A stretch of DNA of 33,676 nt from a virus, in the IMG/VR virus record IMGVR_UViG_3300020475_000001, positions 1-33,676 of that record; one strand, written 5' to 3'. Each line of letters starts with the position of its first letter. Within the stretch, counting starts at the first letter, position 1. The position numbers were made by a program, and so were the translations under genes. A model generated the notes under the pieces. The model had not been told where the DNA came from. It ran no database searches and was given only the letters and a program-made list of their open reading frames with translations. Below, one piece after another: positions 8,741 through 29,676 of the stretch.

Positions 8741-9136
8741 TTATAATTTATAAAGTTTTAGCATTAAATGTAGATATTTATCATTTGAAGTTTGCTTAAA
8801 CATATCGCTACACATTTTCTTAAGTCTATCTATCTTAACTTCTCTTTTAAATTTTAGATCTTCTTGCTTTTGTTTTTCTTCCCATCTAATATCTTCCTTG
8901 ATAGACAATTCTTGTTTTTGTTTTTTTGTTGGTCTACCGATCATAATTATATCATTTGGTTCAAACATTCCTCCATTGTAAGAAACTCTCGATCCACATA
9001 CATGTACGTATCTTGATACTATTTTTTTAGATTTATATTTATTACGGTTTGTTAACCAATCATAAACCATAATAGTAACCCAAGTCCCTATTTCTAAATT
9101 GGAGTTTTTAGTTTGTAATTTTATTTCTTGTCTCAT
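8741..9136 (-). CDS. Hypothetical protein, 131 aa
   Basis: First gene after the non-coding RNA and promoter-like block. The N-terminal 65 residues are beta-rich ('GTWVTIMVYDWLTNRN', 'RYVHVCGSRVSYNGGMFEPN'), suggesting a small SH3-like barrel; the C-terminal half is a highly charged helix. No family recognised. Confidence 0.6.
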   Translation of the reverse strand: MRQEIKLQTKNSNLEIGTWVTIMVYDWLTNRNKYKSKKIVSRYVHVCGSRVSYNGGMFEPNDIIMIGRPTKKQKQELSIKEDIRWEEKQKQEDLKFKREVKIDRLKKMCSDMFKQTSNDKYLHLMLKLYKL

Positions 9137-9159
9137 TTTGTTTTAGCGTTTGATTATTA

Positions 9160-9232
9160 GTATGGTATAAATATAATAAACAATTGTTAACTAATATAAT
9201 TTCAAATGTTAAAGTTTTGTTAAAGTTTTGTT
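9160..9232 (-). promoter_or_regulatory. Promoter-like TTAAC repeat region D
   Basis: On the minus strand an 11-base unit AACAAAACTTT is repeated twice in tandem directly after the RNA terminator, followed by AACATTTGAAA and an A/T-rich stretch up to the 131-aa gene. Similar TTTAACA boxes occur just upstream of the RNA (9969-9998). A promoter for the 9.1-8.0 kb genes is likely; the exact -33/-7 boxes are not certain. Confidence 0.45.
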
Positions 9233-9272
9233 AAAAAAAAACCCCCTAGAGATCCGTGATCAATATGGGGGT
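9233..9272 (-). terminator. Rho-independent terminator of the 0.7-kb RNA
   Basis: A G/C stem ACCCCC (9272-9267) with GGGGGT (9246-9241) is followed on the minus strand by eight T. The 20-nt loop contains a small inner GATC-ACG-GATC hairpin. It marks the 3' end of the structured non-coding transcript. Confidence 0.88.
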
Positions 9273-9942
9273 CAAATATCTAATAGGCTGTCTGATGGAG
9301 GTATACGTTTTACCACTCTCGAGATTCGAATCTCTCACCATCGTCGTTACAAGATTAAGTCTTGACAAAAGACACGGTCCTCTTCCCGCTAAGGTTTCGC
9401 CCGACTGCCTACGAGTCTTTAAATATTTTAATAATATTATTATCTAGTTAGGTGCCTCTGTAGGTTATGAAGACGCGCATCATCTTTTTTAACCTCCCAG
9501 CTATGCGACTTGCCGGTTACAATCACAAGGTCTTTAATGGTTGGGTTTACAATGCGTACTTACATTGCAAAGAAACTTTTGATTTCTAGTTTCCCTTTAC
9601 CATCCGTTGCCCGAGTATACTCTTTTGTCTATGTCGAAATTATAATCTTGTTTAAGTAATTAACTTAATTTCATATAATTATCTGCGTGATGCTACTACA
9701 CTAACCCCCTTTGAAGAGGGTGAAGGAATTGCACCTCCGTTTCAGTATCCTTTTCCTCAAATATTAATGCCTTCCTAATGCGACATTGTTACTCGAAACA
9801 AATTTCCTAGATATATTCTGGATTGCTTAGATCGTTTGAATTATGATTCTCATCCTAAGTGTTTTAAAAGTCTCGCATTCGATGTTAATGACTTTCCAGT
9901 TTTTCAGTATTTTAATGAACATTTGTACATAAGTACATAGCT
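9233..9942 (-). ncRNA. Candidate large structured non-coding RNA (~700 nt)
   Basis: No convincing ORF exists on either strand across about 700 bases in an otherwise gap-free genome. A promoter-like TAAATTTG box lies at 9956-9949 and an intrinsic terminator at 9272-9233. Helices readable by eye include 9895-9890/9872-9867, 9859-9855/9830-9826, a 5-bp stem with the T-loop-like TGCAATT at 9738-9722, 9720-9705, nested 9680-9674/9644-9638 and 9668-9663/9657-9652, a three-way junction closed by ATGGT/ACCAT (9603-9599/9541-9537) with two inner hairpins, 9516-9512/9501-9497, 9495-9490/9467-9462, 9373-9369/9363-9359, and a 14-base palindrome with TTCGAA at 9334-9321. G+C is higher than the flanks. Size, phage location beside the terminase, and T-loop-like elements recall the ornate phage RNAs GOLLD and ROOL, but family membership cannot be shown here. 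Confidence 0.78.
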
Positions 9943-9948
9943 AATATA

Positions 9949-9998
9949 CAAATTTAGTTTAGTTTAAAGTGTTAAAGGAATGTTAAAGTTTTGTTAAA
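9949..9998 (-). promoter_or_regulatory. Promoter-like region C before the structured RNA
   Basis: Minus strand carries three TTTAAC boxes (within 9998-9960) and then TAAATTTG at 9956-9949, an exact match to the Bacteroidota -7 consensus TAnnTTTG. The expected transcription start is near 9942. An inverted TTTGTA...TACAAA pair (9952-9922) overlaps the start and could be an operator. Confidence 0.6.
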
Positions 9999-10001
9999 AT
10001 T

Positions 10002-11171
10002 CTAATATATATGATAAGAGCCTCGATGAGGATTATCTAATTGTGCGGTAATTGCATACCTCATTGCATCAATACAATGGTTATAAGCATCAATTGGTTT
10101 GTTTAATGTTTCACCATCTTTTGTTTGTAACCAAATATAATTTTGTAGTTCTTTGATCATGTTAACAGATCTACTAGTTATATATATTTCATTTTGATTT
10201 ATTAAGTTAATACCGTAAACAATACTATCTCTTCCTTTCATACATGGTAAAACCGTGTGCCCATAACTATTTAATTCAGCAATTGATTTTGGCTCTGCAC
10301 TATCCGCATATATTATATTGTCTACTTCATAACTCTTTAATAAAGCACTGATCTCAGTATTTAACATTCCTCTTTTATATATTACCTCATCAAAAATAAA
10401 GGAATCATTATATTTATACATTGCAATCAATGTTGTAGGATCGTTAGAATATCCCCAATCCATTCCATAACATAATAACCTAGCTTCATGAGGTAGATCT
10501 ATTTGTTTCCAATCTGGTATACATGCACCTTCTAAACTACCTATCTCACCTAAACCATAAACTGTCCACCAATTTTTCCAATAAGTAGAAGTTGTTGCTT
10601 TTAATCTTGCCTTCTCAATATCCTTTATTATTGTTTGTGGTAAAGCTTCATTATCTTTATATGTTAATTTAATAAAGTCTGTGTCTTCTGTGTTTTGTAA
10701 TTCAGTGTGTGCCCAGAAAGATGAGGTAGGATTAAAGTCAATCCATATAGTTTCATTAGTTCTTATTGCTAATTGATTATAGGCATCAAACGGAATATTG
10801 TTTGCTTCATTAACGTATAAAATATTTCTACGAGCTCCTCTTAATTTATCAGCTGATTCTATAGAAAAGAATTCTATATAACTACCATTTGTAAATTGAT
10901 ACTTTAATAAGCTTTTATTAAACATGCCGTCTATGTATCTATTAGTTGACATCATAATCTTTAAGAAGTCTTTTAAAGCACCTCTACGTAGATGAGGAAT
11001 AGATTCACTAACTATAGATATTTCTTTGTTAGAATTCTTAATTGCATGATCAATAAGTAATGGTATAATTCCAAAGGTTTTACCTGCAGATGTTCCACCT
11101 TGAACAACTCTATTACGTTTATTTAATTTACTAAGTTTCTTTATTGCTGTCGTTACAATAAAATCATTCAT
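10002..11171 (-). CDS. terL: Terminase large subunit
   Basis: 389 aa, DNA-packaging motor. The N-terminal ATPase shows Walker A 'QGGTSAGKT' (residues 24-32), a Walker B-like 'NILYVNEAN' (about 116-124) preceded by 'KLRGARR', and a coupling segment 'WIDFNPTS'. The C-terminal RNase H-like nuclease shows 'YGMDWGYSNDPT' (Asp238), 'NIIYADSAEP' (Asp290) and 'DAYNHCIDAMRYAI' (Asp361/Asp368). Length is at the short end of the family. Its start overlaps the small subunit by 8 nt; the structured RNA follows directly downstream, separated by a promoter-like block. Confidence 0.95.
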   Translation of the reverse strand: MNDFIVTTAIKKLSKLNKRNRVVQGGTSAGKTFGIIPLLIDHAIKNSNKEISIVSESIPHLRRGALKDFLKIMMSTNRYIDGMFNKSLLKYQFTNGSYIEFFSIESADKLRGARRNILYVNEANNIPFDAYNQLAIRTNETIWIDFNPTSSFWAHTELQNTEDTDFIKLTYKDNEALPQTIIKDIEKARLKATTSTYWKNWWTVYGLGEIGSLEGACIPDWKQIDLPHEARLLCYGMDWGYSNDPTTLIAMYKYNDSFIFDEVIYKRGMLNTEISALLKSYEVDNIIYADSAEPKSIAELNSYGHTVLPCMKGRDSIVYGINLINQNEIYITSRSVNMIKELQNYIWLQTKDGETLNKPIDAYNHCIDAMRYAITAQLDNPHRGSYHIY

Positions 11172-29583: not shown

Positions 29584-29623
29584 GATCACGTTTTTTATAA
29601 AACAAGAAAATTAGATTTCTGTT

Positions 29624-29652
29624 AAAAAAAAAGCCCCTATTACTAGAGGCTT
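29624..29652 (-). terminator. Rho-independent terminator after the tube-like gene
   Basis: An 8-bp stem AAGCCTCT/AGGGGCTT (one G-U pair) with a 6-nt loop followed by a run of T on the minus strand. It ends the capsid and tube transcript before the portal operon, which would let capsid and tube proteins be made in excess. Confidence 0.85.
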
Positions 29653-29676
29653 ATAAAATATGAAAATTAAAAGAAA

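Follow-up and report, generated by a model that had tools for sequence, protein, structure and literature searches.

A likely new class of large modular RNA genes with a boxA-type leader in Bacteroidota phages

The minus strand of the window (the whole stretch of 33,676 nt from IMG/VR virus record IMGVR_UViG_3300020475_000001) carries, between the terminase gene and the next gene, a locus that we read with fair confidence as encoding a large structured RNA, modular and trans-acting, of Bacteroidota phages, probably flavobacterial ones; this assignment covers class and organisation, not role. The lack of a conserved reading frame, a covarying fold, a conserved leader, modularity, an empty site and an accessory distribution were all observed. 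Three further points are inferred: the product is the RNA as such, it uses Nus factors through NusB–S10 binding, and it is expressed lytically. The results support a new class, unrelated to GOLLD and ROOL, among the large structured phage RNAs, which are a known kind. A preliminary description of this DNA had missed the boxA leader, as well as the modularity of the RNA and the accessory nature of the site.

The locus and its coding potential

The unit at 9941-9233 on the minus strand is self-contained and non-coding, and comprises a promoter box, a 5' hairpin, a folded body and an intrinsic terminator (Table 1). No ORF of at least 60 aa was found on the RNA strand in 9233-9942, and none of the small ORFs in the RNA homologues is common to the whole family, which bears out the earlier statement that the stretch has no supportable ORF. 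A 96-aa ORF within the RNA of L105 (L-numbers are labels of the compared loci or contigs) was taken as a chance occurrence because it is absent from the homologues. ARAGORN predicted neither tRNA nor tmRNA.

The RNA stretch has a GC content of 37%, and the contig one of 31%. The predicted fold of the minus strand was better than those of dinucleotide shuffles (z = -2.55, 0 of 20 shuffles as good), while the plus strand was no better than its shuffles (z = -0.70). Such a single-sequence excess of folding energy is a weak discriminator, being small in the window and missing in some homologues; it is therefore only modest evidence, and covariation is decisive.

The strong terminator described previously at 9272-9233 is present in the sequence, and a hairpin with a T-run ends 13 of the 18 RNAs inspected. 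No terminator lies ahead of the following ORFs in L008 and L108, and therefore not all copies are stand-alone units. The promoter-like element AACAAAACTTTAACATTT flanks the RNA on both sides (9204-9232 and 9978-9995, minus strand). A blastn search against named phages revealed an exact copy of this 34-nt element in Tenacibaculum phage Larrie, which has five matching places, and nothing beyond it; queries with the L092 and L104 RNAs gave no match to named phages. About 1.1 kb of Larrie (L159:990-2127) is unannotated, contains several promoter-like repeats, and is possibly another non-coding RNA locus.

Table 1. Features of the locus and its relatives, and module orders of the RNAs (box, boxA; T, terminator)
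Feature	Position	Strand	Basis or remark
Terminase large subunit	10002..11171	-	Upstream neighbour of the RNA; Pfam PF17288, PF04466
Promoter -7-type box TATATTAG	9941..9948	-	Leaders of 19 RNAs lined up, alignment A5
5' hairpin UGUAC-UUAU-GUACA	9924..9937	-	Directly before boxA; leader alignment
boxA-type antitermination element AATGTTCATTAAAATACTGAAA	9902..9923 (18-mer core 9921-9904)	-	Sequence and position
Module A'	9818..9899	-	Closed by CUGG/CCAG; otherwise only in L004
Module B'	9521..9807	-	Homologous to L092, L105, L084, L121; alignment A2
T-loop hairpin GGAGG-UGCAAUU-CCUUC	9722..9738	-	Alignment A2
Core module C	9451..9520	-	Ends in conserved RCCUMACU; alignment A1
Core C P1	9516-9512/9501-9497	-	A1, RNAalifold unaided
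Core C P2	9495-9490/9467-9462	-	A1, RNAalifold unaided
Core C P3	9486-9482/9474-9470	-	A1, RNAalifold unaided
Core C kissing helix	9507-9503 with 9480-9476	-	A1, added by hand
Linker TTAAAATATTTAAAG	9417..9431	-	Separates C from D; a boxA-like repeat of a kind that recurs at numerous module junctions
Module D	9288..9415	-	Alignment A3
Module D three-way junction	9342-9338/9298-9294		With hairpins 9334-9321 (UUCGAA loop) and 9314-9300
Intrinsic terminator (ACCCCC...GGGGGUUUUUUUUU)	9233..9272	-	Read from sequence
131-aa ORF	8741..9136	-	Neighbour downstream of the RNA; no family match
boxA-type leaders of large-phage GOLLD RNAs	L095:8840, L099:7774, L140:566 (LR745206.1)
Order, window			box-A'-B'-C-D-T
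Order, L004			box-A'-B-C-D-T
Order, L005			box-A-B-C-D-T
Order, L086			box-A-B-C-D-E-T
Order, L007			box-M-box-A-B-C-I-D-E-T
Order, L010			box-B-C-F-E-T
Order, L011			box-A-B-C-T
Order, L102			box-B-C-T
Order, L104			box-B-C-M-T
Order, L092			box-B'-C-T
Order, L105			box-Q-box-B'-C-T
Order, L084			box-N-box-Q-box-B'-C-T
Order, L143			box-N-box-M-T
Order, L160			box-M-X-T

Covariation of the predicted fold

Alignments were built for core C (A1, 14 sequences), B'+C (A2), D (A3), B+C (A4, 10 sequences) and the leader (A5). For core C, unguided RNAalifold predicted the helices P1, P2 and P3, with double changes in 7 of 17 pairs, and 94.4% of the cells pair once the kissing helix is included. The covariation score of this structure was 0.322, compared with 0.146 for shuffled alignments (0 of 500 as high) and no more than 0.061 for slid partners; the kissing helix alone scored 0.297 (shuffled 0.107, slid at most 0.10). 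By eye, the kissing loops change together (CGCAU/AUGCG, CGUAU/AUACG, CUGGUA/UACCGG and, in the more distant L100, UUGAUAG/CUAUCAA); the contact could be intra- or intermolecular.

Support extends beyond the core. Double changes affect 29 of the 50 pairs predicted for B+C, where 92.2% of cells are paired and the score is 0.461 (0.181 shuffled, at most 0.09 slid), 13 of 67 in B'+C, and 6 of 32 in D, for example GC/UA in the 9314-9300 stem. The rows of these alignments are related and their cells not independent; slid controls preserve this relatedness yet score far lower. A covariance model of core C (R1) gave the window, a member of its training set, 110 bits and recovered four untrained relatives, L100, L102, L104 and L106, with E-values of 2e-6 to 3e-4. 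The compensatory changes across related phage contigs, exceeding both shuffled and slid controls, and the lack of a conserved reading frame uphold the preliminary description of the stretch as a structured non-coding RNA.

Individual elements of that description fared differently. The three-way junction read at 9603-9537 stands in the stem 9604-9599/9541-9536, which covaries (GAUGGU/ACCAUU, replaced by GACACU/AGUGUU in L084), and falls in its extra arms, an insertion present only in the window; a simple hairpin is the counterpart in four homologues. Both hairpins regarded as T-loop-like are conserved, 9738-9722 in the homologues of module B' and 9334-9321 in all homologues of module D. In L105, the counterpart of the former is a perfect canonical tRNA T-arm, GGAGGUUCGAAUCCUCC.

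The promoter and boxA leader

All 19 RNAs lined up begin alike, with a TATATTWG-type box, a short covarying hairpin and then ATGTTCWTTAAAATA. The box, TATATTAG in the window, which we take to be a -7-type promoter of the TAnnTTTG family of Bacteroidota, is kept as TATATTWG in most homologues, and one or two of the 19 RNAs carry one change. The preliminary description had assigned this function to TAAATTTG at 9956-9949; that box is indeed in the sequence, but it was discounted, being absent from L010 and L011, and the conserved box is TATATTWG, here at 9948-9941. As read from the leader alignment, the stem of the 5' hairpin covaries (GUAC/GUAC, GUAG/CUAC, GUAA/UUAC).

The motif AATGTTCWTTAAAATA, found at the start of every RNA, resembles the boxA upstream of Bacteroidia 16S rRNA genes. 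The window has a single exact copy of it, 7 RNA-bearing relatives have one copy each, and 18 relatives without the RNA have none, even with up to one mismatch allowed. In 9 of 10 Bacteroidia genomes with enough upstream sequence, the 16S rRNA gene is preceded at a distance of 77-140 nt by GTTCTTTGA..., often in the form TGTTCTTTGAAAATATTGA. The phage RNA passes the test for an element near its 5' end that matches the host rRNA boxA. The phage-type motif also lies within a tRNA cluster that is followed by tuf (read from sequence) in a Chlorobiota genome, and a boxA-type leader precedes a phage tRNA array (L103:9972). Two other prokaryote hits, one apparently in coding sequence and one in Staphylococcus, were dismissed as chance.

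As far as sequence and position alone can tell, the phage leader is a boxA; binding of NusB–S10 to it is inferred. In bacteria, boxA binds NusB–S10 and blocks Rho-dependent termination of untranslated rRNA, and Nus factors together with boxA provide rRNA antitermination and support for rRNA folding (PMC12691694, PMC10931766). The phage locus resembles bacterial boxA-led rRNA and tRNA operons in its nearly identical leader and in the motif shared with the Chlorobiota tRNA-tuf cluster, but the body of the phage RNA is neither rRNA nor tRNA.

Modular architecture

Seed modules were mapped on the 19 RNAs, and short matches below the threshold were completed by reading the sequence. The modules (A, A', B, B', C, D, E, M, N, Q and others) occur in many different orders (Table 1). 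Module A replaces A' in L005, L086, L007, L011, L012 and L008. Module B' of the window holds the T-loop hairpin 9738-9722 and the covarying stem 9604-9599/9541-9536. Module M is the 5'-most module in L007 and the 3'-most in L104, and module N is 98% identical between L143, where the RNA follows the terminase, and L084, where it precedes the portal; L160 and L143 lack the core altogether. The longest forms have tandem modules each with its own boxA (N, Q, B'-C), located at about 1,600-2,660 of the locus on the minus strand in L084, an RNA of about 1 kb upstream of the portal, and at L105:6500-7340.

After the first boxA, 13 boxA-like repeats TTAAARTAYT were counted in 18 RNAs, compared with 0.32 in dinucleotide shuffles, and most of them sit at module junctions; homologous rows are not independent here either. 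In L161 and L162, which resemble L108, the promoter, hairpin and boxA are kept and the whole body is missing, which represents a natural empty site. The break falls between TTAAAATA and AAAGTATTAAACT, repeats that flank B-C in L108. Recombination at boxA-like repeats would be the simplest account of module exchange, an inference from these arrangements.

Distribution among phages

A terminase search yielded 80 related loci, and scanning for patterns taken from the RNA and its leader brought in further RNAs. The nine closest relatives (87-95% identity) have a related RNA at the same place, and about 20 phage contigs carry relatives of the RNA in total; this set is small, several members are close, and the contigs are fragments. 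The RNA also lies beside a terminase of only 61-64% identity in L092, L100, L102, L104 and L106. A second site is found just upstream of the portal gene cluster in L101/L121, L105 and L084, and the L101 RNA is 11.6 kb from the terminase. In the window itself, the place where L101, L105 and L084 hold the RNA (29590-29676, minus strand) is a short gap ahead of a 121-aa gene and the portal gene, with only a promoter-like match.

The RNA is absent from many relatives with 73-80% identical terminases, and in more distant relatives small ORFs or other short sequence occupy the post-terminase gap instead. It is an accessory element of these phages. At this site, L036 (AAAAGGGTGGTATTTAACGC...AACCCTTTTA), L064 and L024 have different short stretches that are non-coding and look structured.

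A flavobacterium is the probable host; this is inferred from the terminase of the window, which is 54% identical to terminases of Flavobacterium psychrophilum phages, and from promoters that belong to the TAnnTTTG type of Bacteroidota. The core pattern had no match in 84,980 prokaryote genomes, and model R1 none in 395 Bacteroidia genomes under strict filters; a positive control on phage records worked.

Comparison with known RNA families

A scan of the window against Rfam 15 at the gathering score gave no match, and at E<=10 only three chance-level matches, none to GOLLD or ROOL, were obtained for 9150-10050; no module matched any Rfam family. The GOLLD (RF02032) 3'-domain model at 150 bits or more had no match in the window, L007, L010, L012, L084, L092, L100, L102, L104, L105 or L108, while the same scan found GOLLD in L095 and L099 at 290-300 bits. 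Conversely, R1 did not match the GOLLD loci, and local alignments with GOLLD scored about as high as the average shuffle and lower than the best one, with nothing beyond the leader.

The RNA is thus neither GOLLD nor ROOL, because Rfam 15 has no match to it even at E<=10. A kinship with one of these families had been suggested, with a new class as an equal alternative; only the latter is supported. GOLLD membership was rejected for want of a model match and of similarity past boxA, and ROOL membership because the whole library at E<=10 gave no ROOL match. With neither an Rfam nor an ARAGORN match, tmRNA, RNase P, group I/II introns and tRNA were also rejected, so a hit to a housekeeping RNA or intron, which would have refuted the preliminary description, did not arise.

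GOLLD is a large phage-encoded ncRNA with kissing loops and a variable 5' part joined to a conserved part, and is described as assembling into a 14-mer RNA cage (PMC12286853). The RNA of the window resembles it in size, phage setting, kissing loops and, for some GOLLD RNAs, the leader: those of L095, L099 and LR745206.1 begin with the same boxA leader, at a distance of 477-510 nt from the Rfam 3' domain downstream, whereas L141 (LR756502.1) and L142 (Acinetobacter phage vB_AciJM_313) have no recognisable boxA in theirs, which makes three of only five phage GOLLD RNAs checked. A GOLLD search of Bacilli genomes for the same purpose returned nothing, its controls were also empty, and hence it carries no weight. 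Unlike GOLLD, the RNA of the window is not beside tRNA genes, and its class has several interchangeable domains instead of one 5' and one 3' domain. With ROOL it shares the size range, the phage or prophage setting and an ornate fold, but not an Rfam match at E<=10. In the open-access literature, to which the search was confined, we found no description of this class or of boxA in GOLLD.

Proposed mechanism and possible roles

We propose that the locus has its own promoter, which yields a transcript starting with the short hairpin and the rRNA-type boxA, which, by analogy with rRNA, would load NusB–S10 and Nus factors. RNA polymerase so equipped would be shielded from Rho, allowing the long untranslated RNA to be completed and aiding its folding. 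The transcript is predicted to fold into a core of B or B' plus C, with a tertiary kissing-loop contact and, in B', a tRNA-like T-loop; accessory domains (A' and D in the window) would join this core, and the intrinsic terminator would end the transcript. Between phages, domains are swapped, apparently by recombination at the boxA-like repeats at module junctions.

For the role, a GOLLD- or ROOL-like structural RNA assembling through kissing contacts is our first choice, inferred and held only tentatively. Next comes an RNA acting on host machinery or on defence, also an inference and in our judgement rather unlikely. The strongest competing readings are an RNA directed at the host or its defence, and an array from which separate small RNAs are released by processing.

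In the first of these, the locus would be a hypervariable counter-defence or host-takeover RNA whose modules act as decoys or mimics (e.g., of a T-arm) against host defences that cut tRNA or sense RNA. The accessory distribution with absence from many close relatives, the two different sites, after the terminase or before the portal (L101/L105/L084), the trading of modules between phages and the perfect T-arm of L105 would all fit. However, no module matches a known Rfam family, and T-loops are also ordinary tertiary motifs. We regard this version as unlikely; it competes for the role only and is compatible with the class assignment.

In the array model, a single boxA promoter would drive several independent small RNAs that are then separated by cleavage, as in a phage tRNA array, and each module would function alone. 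It could explain why modules occur singly and in varied orders (L143, L160), why full boxA copies separate some of them (L084, L105) and why the same boxA leads the tRNA array of L103. Against it, C was never found without B or B', and RNAalifold pairs B' with the 3' end of C (A2 columns 112-117 with 401-406), although the support for this pairing is weak and the T-loop hairpin is incompatible with it. We consider this model quite doubtful.

The structural RNA reading has weaker competitors. The pRNA of phi29 is a structured phage RNA encoded near packaging genes, whose multimer is held by loop-loop contacts, and the RNA described here is similar in being structured, in its loop-loop contact and in its position: in every case where the surroundings could be read, it is adjacent to the terminase or immediately precedes the portal gene. 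Still, a packaging RNA acting with the adjacent terminase or portal is very unlikely: phi29 pRNA has 174 nt, compared with about 700, the present RNA has no Rfam match of any kind, it is missing in 18 contigs with related terminases (though contigs may be incomplete) and is dispensable judging by distribution, while an essential motor part should be neither optional nor so variable. It is equally improbable that the RNA is a boxA sponge titrating NusB–S10 and disturbing host rRNA synthesis, for which the three boxA copies in L084, the two in L105 and the restriction of boxA to RNA-bearing genomes (7 with the RNA, 0 of 18 without) could be cited, since 400-1,000 nt of covarying fold would be unneeded and most copies have a single boxA, as antitermination predicts. 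Least credible is a long cis-regulatory 5' leader (riboswitch or attenuator), suggested by the location upstream of genes, the terminator at the end and the ORFs that follow without one in L008 and L108, but contradicted by downstream genes that vary between relatives, by two unrelated sites and by the promoter-like stretch after the terminator in the window.

Significance

To our knowledge, few classes of large phage RNAs are known, and GOLLD and ROOL are RNA-only cages whose function is not known. The unrelated class described here comes in many natural combinations of domains, among them forms without the core and an empty site, and thereby makes the function of large phage RNAs testable by comparison and deletion. 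The leader shared with rRNA leads to the testable idea that phages borrow the host rRNA antitermination machinery for long untranslated RNAs, and the succession of promoter, hairpin and boxA is a simple search handle for more such RNAs. More generally, it is quite possible, although we stop short of calling it probable, that Bacteroidota phages carry combinatorial RNA genes in which a boxA-driven promoter is combined with interchangeable folded domains shuffled at boxA-like repeats, giving RNAs of several domains that, in much the same way as multi-domain proteins, would assemble or act on the host; some GOLLD RNAs would share the expression system.
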